Assembly: GCF_001485215.1 (NCBI RefSeq)
Contig: NZ_BBWW01000001.1
Location: forward strand, 1,860,001 to 1,924,000
Reading direction: 5' to 3'
Length of the DNA: 64,000 nt
Source of the DNA: Leptolyngbya sp. NIES-2104
Lineage (GTDB): Bacteria > Cyanobacteriota > Cyanobacteriia > Leptolyngbyales > Leptolyngbyaceae
Of this stretch, positions 2,660-62,081 are shown piece after piece; within the stretch, counting starts at the first letter, position 1, and each line of letters opens with the position of its first letter. Both the position numbers and the translations under genes were made by a program. A model generated the notes under the pieces. It ran no database searches, was not told the origin of the DNA, and was given only the letters and a program-made list of their open reading frames with translations.

Positions 2660-2856
2660 GCGGGTATTTGAAGAGTTTCTTCGCTTCGATTGCGTCTCGC
2701 CCTGAAATGAATTTCGGGCTAACCGTGGAAAGTCTACTGAAGTAGACTCAGAACAAGTTTCAGTTTCTTAGTCCTTTTTAAAGGACTTTCGCCGATTAGC
2801 CCGAAATTCATTTCAGGGCGGGTGTTGCAACAAACGAAGAACCTTCAAACCTCCTC
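2660..2856. mobile_element. Non-autonomous element with T-shaped fold, copy 1
   Basis: A 197-bp element between cpcG1 and cpcG2. The right end reads ...CAAACCTCCTC followed by TTA, and that TTA (2857-2859) is the stop codon of cpcG1. The left end is diverged (GCGGGTATTTGAAGAGT) and is preceded by GTA instead of TTA. The outer stem is a perfect 25-bp inverted repeat, 2698-2722 with 2796-2820. It encloses two hairpins, AGTCTACTGAAGTAGACT (2731-2748) and AGTCCTTTTTAAAGGACT (2770-2787). It encodes no protein. The decayed left end suggests an old insertion. Confidence 0.85.
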
Positions 2857-3699
2857 TTAAACTTTCGTAGTGCCCGGAATGTAGCTATAAGGTAAGTTCA
2901 CCTTCGGACGGCTGACCGTCGGTTTTGTCACCTCAGCCGCTTCACGACTCGAATCCGGTACTTTGACCGCGCTCGATGTTGCCCGCGCCACGTGACGTTG
3001 CGTATCGAGGTGAGGCGTACTCAGGCTTTGTGCCATATTCAAGAACGTGAACGGAATCGCTTGGCGAATCACTTCTTTATCGAGATCGCCCGCGTTGTAG
3101 CTGCGAACTTGATAGTACGATCGAGTTGCCAATTCCCGCTCTAACAACCGATTGCGCCAGAAATCGCCATAGCGCGGATTCGTCAAGTTAAACGGACGAC
3201 CTTCTAACCGACGACGTTGATAAGGAACAATGTCATCACCAAAGTTCTCGCGATATTCTTCGCCATCGACAAGTTCATCAATGAAGCCGTGTAAACCTTT
3301 AGTCGCAATCACGATCGATTTCGCGATCTGTTCATCCCGACCATACGATGCCCGTCCTAAAAACCGCTTCAGGGTAATATCCACCAAGCGATAGTTCGAG
3401 TTCGTTTCAGCGACCAACTCACGGTAAATGTCGGACTTACCCAAGCCACGAACAAAGTCAGCGACACCAATTTTCCGATTCCGCAGTTGCGATTCGAGGA
3501 AAACCTGACGGTTGCTCTTGAGAATTAAGTGTTCAGCAAAAATCTGGCGATACGCTGCCCAGATAATCCGATCGACATCTTCTGACGATCGCGCATCGGT
3601 TAAGCGATAAATCACCGGATCATCTTCATCAGTGACATCGTATCCATCGACTCGCTGATTCTGAGTTTTGGGATTTACTTTGAGAAGTGGGATTGCCAT
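2857..3699 (-). CDS. cpcG1: Phycobilisome rod-core linker CpcG (first tandem copy)
   Basis: A 280-residue CpcG protein, the longest of the three and close to the usual length of the family. It starts MAIPLLKVNPKTQNQRV. The PBS_linker domain (about 25-185) has [45 protein letters not shown] and DELVDGEEYRENFG. A C-terminal region of about 95 residues, rich in Ser, Thr and Val, would contact the core. It lies 24 bp downstream of cpcF in the same operon. Its TAA stop coincides with the 3-bp target duplication of the adjacent mobile element. Confidence 0.95.
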   Translation of the reverse strand: MAIPLLKVNPKTQNQRVDGYDVTDEDDPVIYRLTDARSSEDVDRIIWAAYRQIFAEHLILKSNRQVFLESQLRNRKIGVADFVRGLGKSDIYRELVAETNSNYRLVDITLKRFLGRASYGRDEQIAKSIVIATKGLHGFIDELVDGEEYRENFGDDIVPYQRRRLEGRPFNLTNPRYGDFWRNRLLERELATRSYYQVRSYNAGDLDKEVIRQAIPFTFLNMAQSLSTPHLDTQRHVARATSSAVKVPDSSREAAEVTKPTVSRPKVNLPYSYIPGTTKV

Positions 3700-3723: not shown

Positions 3724-4356
3724 TTACGAAAGTTGCTGTTTCGCAAGGGCGGCTCTCGCTCGAACCGCACCATCGGAATCAGTTTGCAGTAATCGATCGA
3801 GTTGAGCAATTGCACGAGATCGATCGACCAAATCCGCAGAATTGAGCCAGCTTTGTAACCCGACGATCGCGGCGTACCGAGTCGCCCAATCGACATCTTG
3901 AGCGACAAATAAAAGCGTGTTTAAAGCTTGAGATTGAGCAGATTCGCGGGCTGTGGGTTCAAGTTGTTGCCAGCGGATTTGTCCCAATCCTTTGATTGCC
4001 GCTCGTCTGACGCTCGGAGCAAAATCGGCTTCAGCAGCTTTGATCAAAACATTTAAGGCGAGTGGATCAGCGATCGCGGCAAGTGCGCGTAAACTGTAAG
4101 CTCTTGCCCCGTAGTTATAGCCATCGATTTGAGCTAACAATTCGGGAATTGCGACTTCACCCAACGCTACCAAACCAGAAACCGCCGCTAATGCTGCACC
4201 CGGATTGTTAAACCCTAGAGCGCGAATTAGCGTCGGAATGGCTTCAGTCGATCGCACATTTGCCAAAGCGTGAACGGCTCCAACCAATTTGGCGGGAGAG
4301 TCTGCGGCTTCGACTGCATTAATCAACGATTGAATTGTGGGATCAGTTGCAATCAT
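3724..4356 (-). CDS. cpcF: Phycocyanobilin lyase subunit CpcF
   Basis: Beta subunit of the heterodimeric E/F-type lyase that attaches phycocyanobilin to Cys84 of phycocyanin alpha. The 210-residue protein is built of HEAT/PBS-lyase repeats, seen as AVHALANVRSTEAIPTLIRAL, ALAAVSGLVALGEVAIPELL and ARAYSLRALAAIADPLALN (residues about 20-120). The start at 4356 (MIATDPTIQSL) is chosen because an AGGA ribosome-binding site lies just upstream; an in-frame ATG at 4416 would add 20 residues unlike the family. It follows cpcE in the operon. Confidence 0.93.
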   Translation of the reverse strand: MIATDPTIQSLINAVEAADSPAKLVGAVHALANVRSTEAIPTLIRALGFNNPGAALAAVSGLVALGEVAIPELLAQIDGYNYGARAYSLRALAAIADPLALNVLIKAAEADFAPSVRRAAIKGLGQIRWQQLEPTARESAQSQALNTLLFVAQDVDWATRYAAIVGLQSWLNSADLVDRSRAIAQLDRLLQTDSDGAVRARAALAKQQLS

Positions 4357-4427
4357 AGAATCCTCGTGAGGGGGCACTTTGGCGATCCGATCTCGATTGT
4401 CTCGCTTCCGAATCACCGCTTACCAGT

Positions 4428-24034: not shown

Positions 24035-24229
24035 GAGGCTGTTTGGAAAGTTTTCGCTGCGTTGTGCGCTCGCCCTGAAATGAATTTCGGGCTAATCGGC
24101 GAAAGTCTACTGAAGTAGACTAGGAGCGAGTTCTAGGCTCTTAGTTCATTTCAATGAACTTGCGTCGGTTAGCCCAAAATTCATTTCAGGGCGGGGTGTG
24201 GCAATAACGACTACGTTTCAAACACCTTC
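24035..24229. mobile_element. Non-autonomous element with T-shaped fold, copy 2
   Basis: A 195-bp element downstream of gltX. It runs from GAGGCTGTTTGGAAAGT to ...TTTCAAACACCTTC. The flanks are TTG (24032-24034) and TTA (24230-24232), the latter being the gltX stop codon. The outer stem is 24071-24095 with 24169-24193, with one G-U wobble. The inner hairpins are AGTCTACTGAAGTAGACT and AGTTCATTTCAATGAACT; the second differs from other copies by a compensated base pair. No coding capacity. Confidence 0.85.
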
Positions 24230-25669
24230 TTAAGCCACGATCGACAATGCCTGCTCAAACCGTTCTCGATCGAGTCCTTTCTGATTCAACAGCAACCAGG
24301 ACTGGACTAAATCAGGTCCTTGAAGCGCCCCAGTTAGCGAGGCTCTGAGCGATTTCATCACGACACCTTTCTTCAAGTTCTGCTCTTTCACGACTTGTTT
24401 AATCACGTCTTGAGTCGCAGCTTCAGTTAACGGTGAAGGCATCGCCTCTAAGATTGCCTTAATCGCTGTGGATGCGCCTTCTTGCTGCATTTGAGCTTTC
24501 GCATCTTCGTTCAATTCCACGGATTGGAACAGATAGCGCGTCATTTCTACCGCTTCATTTAGGCGAGAAAGGCTCGGAGCAACTAGGGCAGCGATTTGTT
24601 CCAGCCATGCACGATCGCTCTTTTCATCAAATACATACCCAGCTGATTTCCAGATCGGAACTAATAAATCCGTCACCTCTGGAATCGGCATTGCGTGAAT
24701 ATACTGCCCGTTCAGCCAGTTCAATTTATCCCAGTCGAATTTAGCTCCAGCTTTATTGACGCGATCGAATCCGAATTTCTCAGCCGCTTCTGTGAGCGTG
24801 AAAATTTCGGTCATCGGTTCGGGAGGCGACCAACCGAGCAGCGTCATGTAATTCGCGATCGCGTCCGATGTGTATCCCATATTTCTAAAATCAGAAATCG
24901 AAGTCACGCCATCGCGCTTGGAAAGTTTCGCGCCTGCTTGATTCAAAATCAGTGGAGTGTGTCCGAATTCTGGTAACGTCGCGCCTAATGCTTCATACAG
25001 TAGAATTTGCTTCGGCGTATTTCCGATGTGATCTTCGCCCCTGATCACATGGCTGATTTGCATATCGATATCGTCAATTACCACGACAAAGTTATAAAGC
25101 GGTTGACCGATTTCTTCGCCTTCTGCCGCACGAGCAATCACCATATCGCCGCCCAAATCGCGACCTTTCCATGTGACCGTTCCGCGAACGAGATCCGTCC
25201 AGGAAATTTCTCGATCGTCCTCGATTTTGAACCGAATCACAGGCTTGCGACCTTCAGCCAAGTAAGCCGCTTCTTGTTCGGGAGTCAGATTACGATGGCG
25301 ATTGTCGTATCGGGGCGCTTCGTTTCTGGCTTTTTGTGCTTCCCGCATCGCATCCAGTTCTTCAGGCGTATCATAAGCGCGATAAGCAAGTCCTTTTTCA
25401 AGAAGTTGCTTAATCTTTTCGCCGTACAAACTCATCCGAGCGGTTTGATAGACGGGTTCTTCGTCCCACGTCAAACCGAGCCAAGTCAACCCGTCGAAAA
25501 TGTTCTGCGTGTATTCGGGTTTCGATCGCTCTAGATCGGTGTCTTCGATGCGAAGAATGAATTTTCCACCATGATGACGGGCAAACAGCCAGTTAAAAAC
25601 CGCAGTTCTAGCCGTTCCGATGTGGAGATTCCCAGTCGGGCTGGGTGCAATGCGAACGCGAACTGTCAT
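24230..25669 (-). CDS. gltX: Glutamyl-tRNA synthetase
   Basis: Class I synthetase of 479 residues. The HIGH-like motif is in [13 protein letters not shown] (residues 9-21) and the KMSKS-like motif is KLSKRDG (about 250). In cyanobacteria this enzyme is normally non-discriminating and also charges tRNA(Gln) for the amidotransferase route; it also supplies Glu-tRNA for tetrapyrrole synthesis. The final TAA is the target site of the adjacent mobile element, and the protein is not altered by it. Confidence 0.96.
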
Positions 25670-42955: not shown

Positions 42956-44014
42956 ATGGCGATCGCTTTGAAGGCTGCGGTGATTGGAACTGGAGTAATT
43001 TCTAGAGAGCATTTGAGCTTTTTAGAGCGATCGCGAAATGCGAATCTGGTCGGAGTTTGTGATCTGTCGAAGATCTCAGCCCGCTATGCCGCAGAACGTT
43101 TTCAGGCTGAGGCAGCTTACACCGACTATCGGCAACTTTTAGCAGAAACAAAACCCGATGTCGTGCACGTTCTCACGCCGCCTCAGACGCACTCCTGGAT
43201 CGCGAAAGACTGTCTTGAATCGGGAGCGCATGTCATTTGTGAAAAACCGATCGCGCCAACTTACGAGGAGTTTCAGCAGCTTTGGTCGATCGCACAAGCG
43301 AATCAGCGGTATTTGATTGAAGATCAGAATTATCGATTTAATCAGCCGATTTTAGCGATCGAACAACTTATTGCTCAAGGTCGTCTGGGTGAAGTGGAAG
43401 AAGTCGAGATTCGGATTTCACTGGCAGTGCGAAAAATGGCGATGTTTGCCGATGAGAATTTGCCGAATCCGATTCACAAACTGCCTGGAGGTGTGATCCA
43501 CGACACGATCACGCACATGGCGTATTTGGTGCTGCGATTTTTGCCTATGGAGTTCGATCGAGTTCGAGCCAGTTGGAGCAACTACGGCGGTGGTGATCTG
43601 TTCAAATACGATGACCTTGATGCTTTGCTCATTAGTGGGTCAAAACACGCTCGCATTCGGTTTAGCTCAACAACACTACCAGAATGCTTTGAAATCATCG
43701 TGCGCGGCTCGAAAGGTTACGCACAAACCGATTTATTTCAACCTTATGTTCGCGCCGTGTTACCTCGGAAAGTGGGCAAGCAACTGTCACCTTTAGCCAA
43801 TCACTTCATCAATGGCGCGGAACTTATGCGCTGTAGTGTGCGGAATTTCAATCGAAAAATCATGCAGCGAACACCTTATGAAGGACTGCATGGATTACTC
43901 GATCGAACTTACACCGCATTGCTCAATGGCGATCCACCTCCGATTTCTTACGAAGACATGGAGCGTACAAGTCGATTAGTCGAAGCATTATTGGTAGAGG
44001 AGAATCGTTTATGA
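42956..44014 (+). CDS. Gfo/Idh/MocA family oxidoreductase
   Basis: A 352-residue NAD(P)-dependent sugar dehydrogenase. The Rossmann start is KAAVIGTGVISREHL, followed by VHVLTPPQTHSWIAKDCLES and the family motif HVICEKPIA. The C-terminal substrate domain contains PGGVIHDTITHMAYL. In polysaccharide clusters such enzymes oxidise nucleotide sugars, often at C3, before amination or epimerisation. A GGAGG-like site precedes the ATG. Its stop overlaps the next start by four bases (ATGA). Confidence 0.92.
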   Translation: MAIALKAAVIGTGVISREHLSFLERSRNANLVGVCDLSKISARYAAERFQAEAAYTDYRQLLAETKPDVVHVLTPPQTHSWIAKDCLESGAHVICEKPIAPTYEEFQQLWSIAQANQRYLIEDQNYRFNQPILAIEQLIAQGRLGEVEEVEIRISLAVRKMAMFADENLPNPIHKLPGGVIHDTITHMAYLVLRFLPMEFDRVRASWSNYGGGDLFKYDDLDALLISGSKHARIRFSSTTLPECFEIIVRGSKGYAQTDLFQPYVRAVLPRKVGKQLSPLANHFINGAELMRCSVRNFNRKIMQRTPYEGLHGLLDRTYTALLNGDPPPISYEDMERTSRLVEALLVEENRL

Positions 44015-45075
44015 AGCTACTAATCACGGGCGCGTCTGGCTTTCTAGGACAATATGTGGTGGCGGAAGCTTTAAGGCGGGGTCATCAAGTTCGTGCGATC
44101 GTGCGTCCGGTGACGAAAATTGAAAAGTTCTCCTGGCATGATCATCCGAATCTAGAGATTGTGCGGTTAGATCTGCGGCGCAAAGATGGATTGATTGCAG
44201 CGATTGAAGGAATCGATGCTGTGATTCATCTAGCAGCGGCAAAATCGGGCGATTTCTACGCTCAGTTTGCGGGAACTGTGATTGCGACTGAAAATCTGCT
44301 AGAGGCGATGAAAGCGGCGAATGTGCTGCGCTTGATTGCGATTAGTACGTTCTCGGTTTATGACTATTGGAACTTGCCGATCGATACAGTGCTAAATGAA
44401 GATTCAGCGATCGAGCAAAATCCACTAGAGCGCGATGAATATGCTCAAACTAAGCTAATTCAAGAACGATTAGTGCGCGAATTCGAGCAAGAGAACAATG
44501 CACCTGTGACGATTCTTCGACCCGGCATGATCTATGGTCGTGACTATCTCTGGAATCCTTGCTTAGGTGCAGAACTGACAGATACACTCTGGCTCCGAAT
44601 CGGTGCACGGGCACAGATGCCGATGAACTATGTTGAAAACTGTGCAGAAGCGATCCTTCTCGCCGCTGAGAAAGATAGTGCGATCGGTCAAACAATCAAT
44701 CTCGTTGATGATAATTTGCCGACTCAGCGAGAATTTGCTAAAAAGCTATTTGCAAGACAAAAGGACTTTCCGCGAATGGTTCCGCTCAATTGGACATTCA
44801 TGCGGGGATTCACTTGGATACTATGGCTATATAACAAAACAGTGCTGAAAGGACAGGCAAAGTTTCCGGGTATCTTTGTTCCGGCAAAACTTCATGCTAG
44901 ATTTAAGCCCTTGCTTTACACAAATGATCGAGCGAAACAAATTTTGCAGTGGATTCCGCGATACAGCTTAGATGAAGCGTTCGATCGCAGTTGTAGCTCG
45001 ATCGATTTGTTAGCGGTTCCGGTTGTCGCTCAACCTGCTCAAGATCAGGAACCTCAGCAAGCATTGGTCAGTTAG
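44011..45075 (+). CDS. NAD-dependent epimerase/dehydratase (extended SDR)
   Basis: A 354-residue extended SDR. The cofactor motif is TGASGFLGQYV (residues 6-16). The segments AVIHLAAAKSG and AISTFSVYDYW follow, and the expected Tyr-x3-Lys is DEYAQTKLIQERLV. It probably modifies a nucleotide sugar made available by the coupled Gfo/Idh enzyme. The stop codon TAG was formed by the first base of an inserted mobile element; the sequence across the empty site would have read TAA, so the protein is unaffected. Confidence 0.92.
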   Translation: MKLLITGASGFLGQYVVAEALRRGHQVRAIVRPVTKIEKFSWHDHPNLEIVRLDLRRKDGLIAAIEGIDAVIHLAAAKSGDFYAQFAGTVIATENLLEAMKAANVLRLIAISTFSVYDYWNLPIDTVLNEDSAIEQNPLERDEYAQTKLIQERLVREFEQENNAPVTILRPGMIYGRDYLWNPCLGAELTDTLWLRIGARAQMPMNYVENCAEAILLAAEKDSAIGQTINLVDDNLPTQREFAKKLFARQKDFPRMVPLNWTFMRGFTWILWLYNKTVLKGQAKFPGIFVPAKLHARFKPLLYTNDRAKQILQWIPRYSLDEAFDRSCSSIDLLAVPVVAQPAQDQEPQQALVS

Positions 45076-45283
45076 AGGGTGTTTGAAAAGTATAAAAAGC
45101 CTTTTCGCTTCGATTGCCTCCCGCCCTGAAATGAATTTCGGGCTAACCGTAGAAAGTCTACTGAAGTAGACTCAGAGGCAGCTTCAGGTTCTTAGTCCAT
45201 TTCTAATGGACTTTCGCCGATTAGCCCGAAATTCATTTCAGGGCGGGAGGCTGCAACGAACGACAAACTTTTCAAACATCCTC
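45075..45283. mobile_element. Non-autonomous element with T-shaped fold, copy 3
   Basis: A 209-bp element and one of the best preserved copies. It runs GAGGGTGTTTGAAAAGTAT ... ACTTTTCAAACATCCTC. Both flanks are TTA (45072-45074 and 45284-45286), a 3-bp target duplication. The outer stem is perfect over 25 bp (45122-45146 with 45221-45245). Hairpins inside are AGTCTACTGAAGTAGACT and AGTCCATTTCTAATGGACT. It separates the SDR gene from the downstream GT4 in the same direction and may reduce read-through between them. Confidence 0.9.
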
Positions 45284-45309
45284 TTAAGGGTTGCTCAGAG
45301 GCAAAACGA

Positions 45310-46542
45310 ATGCGAATCGCCTATCTAACCGGAGAATATCCCAGAGCCACTGATACTTTCATTCAGCGAGAAGTTGCTGGACTCAGAGATTTAGGCGTTG
45401 AGGTTCACACCTTTTCTGTGCGTCGTCCCGGTGTTGAACAGTTAGTCGGGGAAGAACAGAAAGCAGAATTCGATCGCACAACTTATCTCCTGCCGCCCAA
45501 AGCGATACAATTGCTCGGATCGCATCTGAAGTTACTGCTCGGCGGGCGATATTGGCGATCGCTAAAACTCGCTTGGAAAACTCGACAACCCGGATTACGC
45601 GGATTACTCTATCAACTGTTCTACTTCTTAGAAGCTGGAATCCTCGCCCAACAAGTTCAACTCCGCCAAATTCAACATCTACATAACCATCTCGCAACTT
45701 CTAGCGGCACCGTTGCGATGTTGGCAGCGGAACTCGGTGGCTTTACCTTCAGTTTTACGCTTCATGGACCTTATATCTTTTTCGAGCCGTATCAGTGGCA
45801 ATTAGCAGAAAAGATCGATCGTGCTTTGTTCGTTTGCTGCATTAGTCATTATTGCCGCAGTCAAGGAATGGTATTTGGCTCGATCGCATCCTGGAATCGA
45901 ATGCACATCATTCACTGTGGCATTGATCCTGCCTTGTTTAAACCTGTGAGACATCAAGGCACTGGAAATCGATTGCTTTACGTTGGACGATTAGCAGCGG
46001 TGAAAGGCTTACCGATTCTGCTCGAAAGCTTGGCGAAATTGGTGTCGAACTATCCAGATTTAGAATTAACCGTGATCGGAGACGGAAGCGATCGAGAACA
46101 ACTAGAAGCCTTGACAGATGAACTCAATTTGCGATCGAATGTCAAATTTCTGGGCTATCAATCCCAAGCCGAAGTTCGTCACCATCTTCAGAAAACCGAT
46201 GTGTTTGTGATGGCAAGTTTTGCAGAAGGCGTTCCTGTCGTTCTAATGGAAGCAATGGCGGCAGGCGTTCCCGTGGTAGCGACTCAGATTGCTGGGGTGA
46301 GTGAATTAGTCGAACATGGAAGCAATGGCTATCTTGTTCCAGCCGGAGATGCAGAGACATTAACCGATCGAATTGGGGAACTGGTACAAGATGCGGAACT
46401 GCGATCGAGCTTTGGAACCGCTGGACGGGTAAAAGTAACCGCAGAATTCAACATCAAAACCGAAGTTGCACGACTCCATCAATTGATGAACCGTGCGCTA
46501 GAAGGAAAACCTGAAGCGATTCGTCCAGCGATCGATCCTTAG
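45310..46542 (+). CDS. Glycosyltransferase family 4
   Basis: A 410-residue GT-B enzyme. The N-terminal domain starts MRIAYLTGEYPRATDTFIQR and contains HLHNHLATSSGTVAMLAAEL. The donor domain has RLLYVGRLAAVKGLPILLES and SFAEGVPVVLMEAMAAGVPV. It is paralogous to the GT4 at 41258-42535. The stop codon TAG consists of two bases of the target duplication plus the first G of a mobile element. Confidence 0.93.
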   Translation: MRIAYLTGEYPRATDTFIQREVAGLRDLGVEVHTFSVRRPGVEQLVGEEQKAEFDRTTYLLPPKAIQLLGSHLKLLLGGRYWRSLKLAWKTRQPGLRGLLYQLFYFLEAGILAQQVQLRQIQHLHNHLATSSGTVAMLAAELGGFTFSFTLHGPYIFFEPYQWQLAEKIDRALFVCCISHYCRSQGMVFGSIASWNRMHIIHCGIDPALFKPVRHQGTGNRLLYVGRLAAVKGLPILLESLAKLVSNYPDLELTVIGDGSDREQLEALTDELNLRSNVKFLGYQSQAEVRHHLQKTDVFVMASFAEGVPVVLMEAMAAGVPVVATQIAGVSELVEHGSNGYLVPAGDAETLTDRIGELVQDAELRSSFGTAGRVKVTAEFNIKTEVARLHQLMNRALEGKPEAIRPAIDP

Positions 46543-46746
46543 AGGATGTTTGAAAAGTTGTCGTTGTTGCCGCAACCCGCCCTGAAATAAATTTTGGGCT
46601 AATTGGCGCAAGTCCATTGAAATGGACTAAGAACTTCAAACTGTCTCCCAGTCTACTGAAGTAGACTTTCCACGATTAGCCCGAAATTTATTTCAGGGCG
46701 GGAGACAATCGAAGCGGAGAGACTTTTTATACTTCTCAAACACCTC
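46542..46746. mobile_element. Non-autonomous element with T-shaped fold, copy 4 (inverted orientation)
   Basis: A 205-bp element between two convergent genes, flanked by TTA on both sides (46539-46541 and 46747-46749). It is reversed relative to the other copies: the AGTCCATTGAAATGGACT hairpin comes first and AGTCTACTGAAGTAGACT second. The outer stem is 46578-46602 with 46676-46700; here ATAAAT pairs with ATTTAT where other copies pair ATGAAT with ATTCAT. Its two target copies supply or complete the stop codons of both neighbouring genes. Confidence 0.9.
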
Positions 46747-48054
46747 TTAAACCTGCTCTCGAACCTTACCAACCTGCGCTTGAGGCAATTCTCTATACGA
46801 TCGCGTCAAACTTGGCAACTCTGATTCATCATCAAAAATCGGAACGCGCTGCTTCACAGTGAGCAATGTGGCAATAAACAGCACCCAATAAACATTCGCC
46901 AATCGCAGCATATAGCTTTCGGTCATGTTATTGAGTGCGAGAAACGTGAGAAAACCCAACGACCAGAGATGCTCTGGATGCTTAGAACCATAAGCCCGCA
47001 TCAACGCTTTAATAAAGCCCGACACATAGCAAATCAGGAACAGAGTCAAACCGATTAAGCCAACATCCAGTGCAATTTCAATAAATCCGTTGTGGGCGTG
47101 CGGTGCTCTGAATGCTTGCGATAGATAGGAGCTAATCGCTCTGGGGTAAGGACTATCCGGTGACCAAAAAGCACTACGACCAAACCCAAACAAAGGACGA
47201 TCGAGCAAATAATCCAGCGAAACTTTCCAAATATAAGTCCGTCCGGTGAGGGTTGGATCTCTTCCTAATGCAGTGAGTAGCGCCACCCAGTTTGTGAGGA
47301 CTGTAACAATCGCTGCCCCACCAATCAGAACTCCTAAGCTACCCAAGACAATCGATCGCTTGCCTCGCCACCGATAATGCCGATAAAACAGCATTAGTGC
47401 CAGTAGCGTGACTGCCAGCACAAGTGCAGTTCTAGAAGTCGAGAGCAAGATCAATGCTGCTGTACTCCCGATGCCGATTCGCTTAATCCAGCGATCGCGG
47501 GGTCGCTCTACAGGTAGCGCAAAAAACGCCAAGAACGCCATCACCATCATGCTGCCAAAGGTGTTTTTGTGTCCGTAGATGCCTCGCCACGCGCCAACGT
47601 GATCAACATCTAGCCCGACTGACGGTAGACCAACGGCAAACAGCACACTCGCGATCGCGCCAATTGTAAAGGTCAGCGCATAGAGCTTGACTTGTTCTCT
47701 AAGAGAAAACCGAGTTGCAATATATAACCCGAAGCAAGTCATTTGTGCCATCTCACGATTTGCCAGCAGCGTCCATTCTGGAAAATCTGACCAAGCAAAT
47801 GAGAAGAGCACGAGCAGTGTGAGAATCCACAGTACCCAGTCTCGCCGCATCGTAATCAGCGTCCGCTTGCCATTGAGTAAAAGCAAGAGGGCACTGACAA
47901 ACCAGATAAAATATCGAACGGTTGTGACAACGATTTCTGGAACCAGACCTGTATCGACACCATCGGTGGTGGCACCGGGCGTGAGACCGCCTGTGAAGAA
48001 GGTCAATCCGAAGACGACGAAGCAAATTTCAGCAAATAAAAGCAGCTTTTTCAC
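46747..48054 (-). CDS. O-antigen ligase/polymerase family membrane protein
   Basis: A 435-residue protein with about ten to eleven hydrophobic segments, starting MKKLLLFAEICFVVFGLTFF. The Wzy_C region includes RAPHAHNGFIEIALDVGLIG, the conserved periplasmic His-containing segment of this superfamily, preceded by DRPLFGFGRSAFW. It either polymerises repeat units or ligates chains. The C-terminal 30 residues are soluble. A small hairpin-forming palindrome (CTGAATTCAG, near 48070) lies just upstream of its start. Confidence 0.9.
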   Translation of the reverse strand: MKKLLLFAEICFVVFGLTFFTGGLTPGATTDGVDTGLVPEIVVTTVRYFIWFVSALLLLLNGKRTLITMRRDWVLWILTLLVLFSFAWSDFPEWTLLANREMAQMTCFGLYIATRFSLREQVKLYALTFTIGAIASVLFAVGLPSVGLDVDHVGAWRGIYGHKNTFGSMMVMAFLAFFALPVERPRDRWIKRIGIGSTAALILLSTSRTALVLAVTLLALMLFYRHYRWRGKRSIVLGSLGVLIGGAAIVTVLTNWVALLTALGRDPTLTGRTYIWKVSLDYLLDRPLFGFGRSAFWSPDSPYPRAISSYLSQAFRAPHAHNGFIEIALDVGLIGLTLFLICYVSGFIKALMRAYGSKHPEHLWSLGFLTFLALNNMTESYMLRLANVYWVLFIATLLTVKQRVPIFDDESELPSLTRSYRELPQAQVGKVREQV

Positions 48055-61378: not shown

Positions 61379-61870
61379 ATGAACTCTGTTATTTGTCCCG
61401 TTCCCGACGAACAGCGACCAATTAATGAATATCAAGACCTGAAGGAATCTTGGTTTTTTCGGTGGGCAACGCTTGATCCAGTTGCGTATATTAAGCCGAT
61501 CGTGATTCTCTGGGCGCTGACCTGGTTGATCTCGGCTCCGGTCGCTGCGGTCAGTTTCCCGCCTGCAAAACATTTACCGCAATTTTTGTTATTCGCCTCC
61601 GCAGGTGCATTAGTACTCCCAGGATTGGCATTGTTACGCCTTTATCTAGGATGGGCGTATGTGCAGAGACGATTGCTTGACCCAGCCGTGTTTTATGAAG
61701 AGTCGGGCTGGTATGACGGGCAAATGTGGGAAAAGCCGCCCGAAGTGTTGGCACAAGATCGATTGGTGGTGAATTATCAGGTGCAGCCGATTTTAGAACG
61801 ATTGAAAAAGACGTTTGTATCGATCGTGGCGATGAGTGCGATCGGGATTTCGATCTGGTTTTTCCTTTAA
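61379..61870 (+). CDS. CGLD27 family protein (DUF1230)
   Basis: A 163-residue membrane protein conserved in cyanobacteria, algae and plants. The signature starts CPVPDEQRPINEYQDLKESW, with two central helices (VILWALTWLISAPVAAV and FLLFASAGALVLPGLALL) and YEESGWYDGQMWEKPPEVLA. A final helix closes the protein. The plant homologue is implicated in photosynthetic performance under stress (iron-related acclimation), but a precise role is not known. Its stop TAA equals the target duplication of the next mobile element. Confidence 0.9.
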   Translation: MNSVICPVPDEQRPINEYQDLKESWFFRWATLDPVAYIKPIVILWALTWLISAPVAAVSFPPAKHLPQFLLFASAGALVLPGLALLRLYLGWAYVQRRLLDPAVFYEESGWYDGQMWEKPPEVLAQDRLVVNYQVQPILERLKKTFVSIVAMSAIGISIWFFL

Positions 61871-62078
61871 GAGGGTGTTTGAAAAGTATAAAAAGTTTCT
61901 TCGCTTCGATTGCCTCCCGCCCTGAAATGAATTTCGGGCTAACCGACGAAAGTCTACTGAAGTAGACTGGGAGCAAGTTTAAGACTCTTAGTCCATTTTT
62001 AATGGACTTGCGCCGATTAGCCCAAAATTCCATTTCAGGGCGGGACGTTGCAACGAACGATACTTTTCAAATAGCCTC
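61871..62078. mobile_element. Non-autonomous element with T-shaped fold, copy 5
   Basis: A 208-bp element. It starts GAGGGTGTTTGAAAAGTAT and ends CTTTTCAAATAGCCTC. It is flanked by TAA (61868-61870, the CGLD27 stop) and TAA (62079-62081), so the target duplication here is TAA instead of TTA. The outer stem is 61918-61942 with 62017-62042 (one extra C in the right arm). Hairpins inside are AGTCTACTGAAGTAGACT and AGTCCATTTTTAATGGACT. Confidence 0.9.
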
Positions 62079-62081
62079 TAA

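Follow-up and report, generated by a model that had tools for sequence, protein, structure and literature searches.

A stop-codon excess among copies of an IS5-linked MITE in a Leptolyngbya genome

The 64,000-nucleotide stretch of Leptolyngbya sp. NIES-2104 DNA analysed here (the window) contains five copies of an element of ~200 bp, each adjoining at least one open reading frame (ORF) whose stop codon it touches (Table 1). The neighbouring genes encode a phycobilisome linker, a class I tRNA synthetase, an NAD-dependent epimerase, a glycosyltransferase with a convergent O-antigen ligase, and a CGLD27-like protein, and the Pfam matches are compatible with the six gene names assigned in an earlier reading of this DNA (the original prediction). 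A search for the end motif, allowing up to 3 mismatches, returned 9 matches in the window against 0.23 expected; eight of these are ends of the five copies, which lie where the original prediction had placed them, and the ninth (190-206) belongs to none. As read off directly, and as first described, three copies carry the same triplet on both sides (TTA/TTA, TTA/TTA and TAA/TAA), and the other two have a single mismatch between their triplets (GTA/TTA and TTG/TTA). In every copy a neighbouring ORF has a stop codon that coincides with, or overlaps, one of the triplets, and here too the ORFs agree with what had been claimed.

Table 1. MITE copies, adjoining genes and their stop codons in the window
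Feature	Position	Strand	Remarks
MITE copy 1 (197 bp, decayed)	2660..2856	+	Flanks GTA and TTA (2857-2859); left end 3 mismatches; right end placed by eye and entered by hand
Phycobilisome linker gene (cpcG1 in the original prediction)	2857..3699	-	ORF, Pfam PF00427; right triplet of copy 1 forms its stop TAA
MITE copy 2 (195 bp, decayed)	24035..24229	+	Flanks TTG and TTA (24230-24232)
Glu/Gln-type tRNA synthetase gene (class I; gltX in the original prediction)	24230..25669	-	ORF, Pfam PF00749; right triplet of copy 2 forms its stop TAA
NAD-dependent epimerase gene	44011..45075	+	ORF, Pfam PF01370
Epimerase stop TAG	45073-45075	+	Target TA plus first G of copy 3
MITE copy 3 (209 bp)	45075..45283	+	TTA flanks 45072-45074, 45284-45286; ends 0 and 1 mismatch to motif
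Glycosyltransferase gene (GT4-type)	45310..46542	+	ORF, Pfam PF00534/PF13439
Glycosyltransferase stop TAG	46540-46542	+	Target TA plus G of copy 4
MITE copy 4	46542..46746	-	TTA flanks 46539-46541, 46747-46749; strand by alignment to copy 3; right end moved one base
O-antigen ligase gene, convergent	46747..48054	-	ORF, Pfam PF04932
O-antigen ligase stop TAA	46749-46747	-	Right triplet of copy 4
CGLD27-like gene	61379..61870	+	ORF, Pfam PF06799; left triplet of copy 5 forms its stop TAA
MITE copy 5 (208 bp)	61871..62078	+	TAA flanks 61868-61870, 62079-62081

At copy 5 the target triplet TAA is itself the stop codon, and its left duplicate still terminates the gene. The plus-strand stop at copies 3 and 4 is TAG, in which TA comes from the target and G from the element, and the rebuilt empty site reads TAA. 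Where the triplet is a gene's TAA stop the left duplicate would keep TAA, and where a TTA overlaps the stop by two bases the TA of the left duplicate together with the element's first G would give TAG. As insertion rebuilds TAA or forms TAG, the protein is unchanged, in agreement with the proposal that insertion regenerates a stop. A stop codon on one strand or the other can fall within the target consensus reported below, YTWAR. Empty sites, proposed earlier for comparison, are present in G002, G005 and G006, where the orthologous loci are free of the element at the junctions of copies 3 and 4; the O-antigen ligase of G002 ends at the same position, its stop there being TAG in place of TAA. 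Between species the glycosyltransferase and epimerase vary at their tails, so that the ancestral stops of these two genes are taken from the rebuilt site only. Creation of the stops by truncation upon insertion is ruled out, as the counted cases have an in-frame stop once the empty site is rebuilt, with that variation of tails to be borne in mind for the glycosyltransferase and epimerase.

The genome under study (6.39 Mb, 5 contigs) has 114 forward and 103 reverse matches to the stem arms (up to 3 mismatches), which translates to ~110 copies of the element, and roughly two thirds of these (70) were mapped with both ends within 4 mismatches. The consensus of the 70 is 207 bp long with 17-bp inverted ends, starts with GAGGGTGTTTGAAAAGT, ends with the near-inverse of this start, and contains two small hairpins and, around CGCCCTGAAATGAATTTCGGGCTAA, a long palindrome. 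Being short, free of a transposase, present in many copies and bounded by inverted terminal repeats, which are paired in the 70, the element is a MITE. A long hairpin is predicted for copy 3 (-119 kcal/mol, z -14.9), which bears out the claim that a structured element is added at the 3′-end of a gene. An intrinsic terminator would have a GC-rich hairpin with a T-run immediately behind it; the element has a hairpin, but in the copies read no T-run directly follows the stem. The Rfam covariance models have no match inside copies 3 and 4, and one sub-threshold match in the window, at 46362-46495. A sister family of 211 bp, to which one of the 70 copies (1392625) belongs, shares this layout with a different sequence. 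An alignment combined 5 sequences of this type with 59 of the 207-bp type, 10 of the remaining 69 copies being omitted; across its 64 sequences, two-sided changes are seen in 11 of the 32 consensus pairs, most of which set the five 211-bp-type sequences apart from the rest. Across the 59 aligned sequences from the studied genome the core of the stem is almost invariant, even in copies with decayed ends, which could reflect constraint or correction between copies.

End pairs were sought in the window together with 80 stretches surrounding copies (1,003,514 bases in total), and the 85 pairs obtained, less 4 that overlapped and with window copy 1 added by hand, define 82 elements. Of the 82, which include 6 IS copies, 63 are flanked by identical direct triplets, and these are TAA (33), TTA (24), TCA (4), CTA (1) and CAA (1), so that 61 of the 63 are TAA, TTA or TCA. 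The target consensus is YTWAR and the duplication is 3 bp, mostly T(A/T)A, as anticipated for a mobile element with a T-N-A duplication. That the triplets might be part of the element is ruled out by their equality as direct repeats. Duplication of a 3-bp TNA target is typical of groups within the IS5 family. An IS5-like transposase gene bounded by the same ends had been suggested as the source of mobility, and the genome does contain an IS of 915 bp, each end of which is one mismatch from the MITE motif, with the same type of duplication, in seven copies (6 chromosomal and 1 on the second contig). Its 263-aa product matches NF033580 at 209.7 bits (cut-off 110), identifying it as an IS5-family transposase, and has Pfam matches to PF13340, PF01609 and PF13586. 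In Nostoc, Nodosilinea and other cyanobacteria this IS has relatives whose ends are of the same type, and TNA flanks are present both at the 915-bp copies and at the relatives. As the ends and the target are nearly the same, the 915-bp IS probably mobilises the MITE in trans, a role that we infer from the ends, and the element falls in the class of IS5-linked MITEs.

To place the copies relative to genes, the elements were excised by script, and a dicodon model was used to call genes in the resulting empty sequences. Among the 70 mapped copies of MITE length, 35 are at a stop codon, 3 are in DNA called as coding and 32 are elsewhere. The 35 comprise 33 assigned by script and window copies 1 and 2, added by hand on the basis of an intact right triplet; one of the 33 (2657532) has an offset of +2 and unequal triplets, leaving 34 strictly at 0 or -1. 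One of the three called coding (111566) has a TCA triplet just before a TGA stop and was excluded from the stop count. Under a null model in which sites are weighted by the target preference of the non-stop copies, stops account for 9.5% of the non-coding weight. When the target triplets are tabulated against such sites, an excess is evident, with 35 of the 67 non-coding mapped copies at stops against 6.4 expected (~5x, p about 1e-18). Coding DNA, with 75% of the target weight, holds 3 of the 70. The excess is also visible at close range, with 35 copies at the stop and 8 within bases 1-30 downstream, where the null assigns 47% to stops (p = 5e-6), and in a test that needs no gene caller, in which an ORF of at least 100 codons ends exactly at the site for 30 of the 70 copies versus 2.9% of sampled T(A/T)A sites. 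Six of the 35 stop copies are in contact with two stops at once, those of convergent genes that overlap there. Such overlaps are not an artefact of the method, as stops that overlap by exactly 4 bases are also found at 18 of the 134 convergent junctions that lack this element in the stretches surrounding copies. In a later hold-out, none of three full-size copies is at a stop, nor are the extras recovered with them (one short element, one 902-bp IS and two single-ended copies), and three more 211-bp copies lie 4, 6 and 16 bases past, rather than at, the stop of an ORF; the hold-out and these three copies were kept out of the main counts. The stop pattern is real in the studied genome at a rate of about one half, and five of five in the window is the lucky end of that rate. 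The statement that the element always sits at a stop codon does not hold.

No such excess was found in the independent genomes and IS relatives that were compared. From 80 loci of IS relatives, removal of 16 without paired ends and of 6 with end mismatches or non-TNA flanks leaves 58, of which one ends an ORF of at least 60 codons, where 4.2% of T(A/T)A sites do so as background; this ORF-only test was relied on since gene calls are poor in loci from other taxa. Unequal flanking triplets occur in 17 of the 58 (among L136-L209), the first T and last A being fixed by the selection rule, and may result from recombination between copies or from chimeric assembly of repeats. In genome G022, 40 stretches with 42 exact ends gave 34 elements of a different MITE with the same ends, of which 3 are at a stop, with 1.7 expected (p = 0.23). 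Among relatives of the MITE in the congeners G001-G006, where 40 stretches yielded 22 copies with ends and 2 of these are in coding DNA, 3 of 20 non-coding copies are at stops, with about 2.4 expected from a background of 12%. These rates differ from that in the studied genome with p = 1e-5 and p = 0.004, respectively. The original prediction would have read the pattern as chance if most copies lay off stops at the rate expected for their target sites. For the MITE in the studied genome they do not, whereas the data from all three comparison sets are compatible with that description. The G022 MITE is 160 bp long, and many copies contain an insert of ~200 bp (L288, L289, L290 and others; about 4000-4360) that has its own inverted ends, GCTACCGTGTACACACAAGTCG, and is present in either orientation and at varying points, as a nested small element.

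The reading that we favour, with a probability of about 0.6, is that the excess arises by selective retention and not by targeting; the original prediction had left this choice open, and the evidence leans to selection. The MITE, ~207 bp and non-autonomous, would be moved in trans by the 915-bp IS5-family IS and would insert initially across YTWAR sites at large. Over time, insertions would be lost from coding sequence, which makes up about three quarters of the weighted sites, and from promoters and 5′-regions, and those at stop codons would persist, presumably because neither gene is disturbed. Selective loss as the cause is what we infer from several lines of evidence, namely the rates in the IS relatives, in G022 and in the congeners, the age of the stop copies and the comparison within gaps. 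Stop copies are more diverged from their nearest copy than the others (median 0.097 vs 0.060, p = 0.0025), with p = 0.07 when age is taken as the distance to the consensus and p = 0.07 by terciles; 10 of the 23 copies in the least diverged third are still at stops. Insertion density per weighted site declines from stops to convergent, then co-directional, then divergent gaps. When each copy is set against the sites available within its own gap (66 of 70 copies assigned; 49 informative gaps, of which rounding leaves 46 when they are divided by gap type), 23 of 49 are at stops against 12.5 expected (p = 1e-5). In convergent gaps this test gives no stop excess (6 of 15, 5.5 expected), and the excess lies in co-directional gaps (17 of 31, 7.0 expected), which matches tolerance where the 5′-region of a downstream gene must be spared. 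A further 11 copies lie in gaps in which the stop is the sole non-coding target. The matched test also bears on the alternative that chance and target composition suffice because non-coding T(A/T)A sites include many stop codons. This does account for G022, the congeners and the IS relatives, and stops do make up nearly a tenth of the weighted non-coding sites; for the studied genome it is refuted by the genome-wide count, the ORF-end test and the matched test together, unless the ~40 unmapped copies are nearly all off stops, and we regard it as very improbable.

Retention does not absorb all of the signal. In co-directional gaps, 18 copies are at the stop and 4 at bases 3-30 downstream (p = 5e-4), an abrupt step that is sharper than avoidance of promoters alone predicts. 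Seven copies occupy overlapping convergent junctions, which account for about 1% of the non-coding weight, and when convergent junctions are counted together stops are over-used (14 of 24, p = 9e-4). Other elements of this genome, the IS included, are at stops in 3 of 8 informative cases in the matched test, with 0.66 expected (p = 0.005); the 915-bp IS itself lies at an ORF end in 2 of its 7 copies, and short and 211-bp relatives are at a stop in 3 of 6. This raises the possibility that part of the effect belongs to the genome and not to the MITE, and, as the IS relatives come from other taxa, host and element effects are incompletely separated. A transposase or host factor that steers insertion to stops, for example through a longer motif or a DNA state at gene ends, would be consistent with the contrast between stops and the 30 bases downstream, with the matched excess over all gaps and with the two IS copies at ORF ends. 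It would predict the same bias wherever these ends and this target are used, and targeting found no support in the IS relatives, the MITE relatives of G001-G006 or the G022 MITE; together with the lack of an excess within convergent gaps, this makes targeting improbable, if less so than chance. As some excess is unexplained, we retain as a minority view, unlikely but ahead of targeting, a positive role for the host, in which a hairpin behind the stop is kept as a 3′-end module (a terminator, a barrier to antisense read-through between convergent genes or a shield against exonucleases) and stops, namely overlapping convergent stops and those of upstream co-directional genes, are preferentially fitted with a hairpin that ends or insulates transcripts. 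The very stable predicted fold, the over-use of overlapping convergent stops and the sharp step at the stop all point this way, as does the sister family, which keeps the layout with paired changes, although template-switch correction of palindromes could also produce such changes. Convergent junctions with the element have weaker native hairpins than those without (median -10.6 vs -14.6, 24 vs 105 junctions, p = 0.03), as would fit an element that takes the place of a terminator, but no size stratum is significant alone, and a corresponding difference at the level of genes (p = 0.009) is lost when short gaps and remnants are removed (p = 0.62 for co-directional genes, 0.11 together). Terminator-like sites do not differ significantly between junctions with and without the element (4 of 24 vs 33 of 105, p = 0.21), there is no evident orientation bias, and the copies read lack the T-run of a terminator.

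Non-coding repeats with inverted ends that match a resident IS, a target duplication, a hairpin and many copies are also described in the available text on MITEAba12, moved by ISAba12 (PMC6382973), and on RUP, mobilised by IS630-Spn1 (PMC2229807). Compared with these accounts, the MITE reported here differs in its IS5-family partner, its 3-bp T(A/T)A target and the location of half of the mapped copies exactly at stops. The partner matches the IS5 family (NF033580), and its relatives are without a stop excess. The closest precedent is pneumococcal. According to the text available of PMC3049150, 58 genes overlap a BOX repeat and 36 of these end in it, the repeat supplying the stop codon; BOX, RUP and SPRITE are over-represented between convergent genes; and its authors suggest that SPRITE was co-opted as a terminator and explain the placing of repeats 3′ of genes by tolerance. 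That text contains no count against a null of target sites, and in the pneumococcal cases it describes the stop comes from the repeat sequence, whereas in the MITE described here it comes from the duplicated target or from the target plus one base of the element. Among cyanobacteria, the MITEs of Anabaena sp. 90 and Nezha resemble ours in having a hairpin and in being mostly intergenic (132 of 147 in Anabaena sp. 90); the available text on Anabaena sp. 90 (PMC3542288) mentions no stop-codon pattern, and our element may be identical with Nezha, which is cited in PMC10969869. Searches of an open-access literature library gave no account of this MITE family or of an exact-stop bias in cyanobacteria. 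MITEs linked to an IS, and repeats at gene ends, are already known, with BOX as precedent; the present family adds a well-counted and partly unexplained bias to the exact stop. It provides a counted case of a transposon whose T(A/T)A target gives access to the very end of a gene with the protein unaltered, in one genome, while relatives of the partner IS show no such bias. The system offers a way to test cleanly whether repeats at gene ends are tolerated or functional, an issue that has been raised for pneumococcal repeats as well (PMC3049150). If the hairpin does act as a 3′-end module, a stop-shaped target would let a transposon spread insulators with no protein altered.

Some further elements accompany the MITE and the IS. 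At L078:5001-5915 a copy of the 915-bp IS splits a long ORF, leaving 268 codons before and 331 after it, both on the same strand. A second IS5-type element, 902 bp long, is located at L351:944-1845 (near 1206228 of the first contig); its ends, GAGGACGTTTGAGAAGT, are more diverged and resemble those of the 211-bp sister family, and it is flanked by TCA and TTA. Four short elements of 55 and 82 bp have both ends (L045:5001-5055, L035:5001-5082, L051:4001-4082 and L086:15789-15870); those of 82 bp retain part of the stem, and two of the four are at stop codons.
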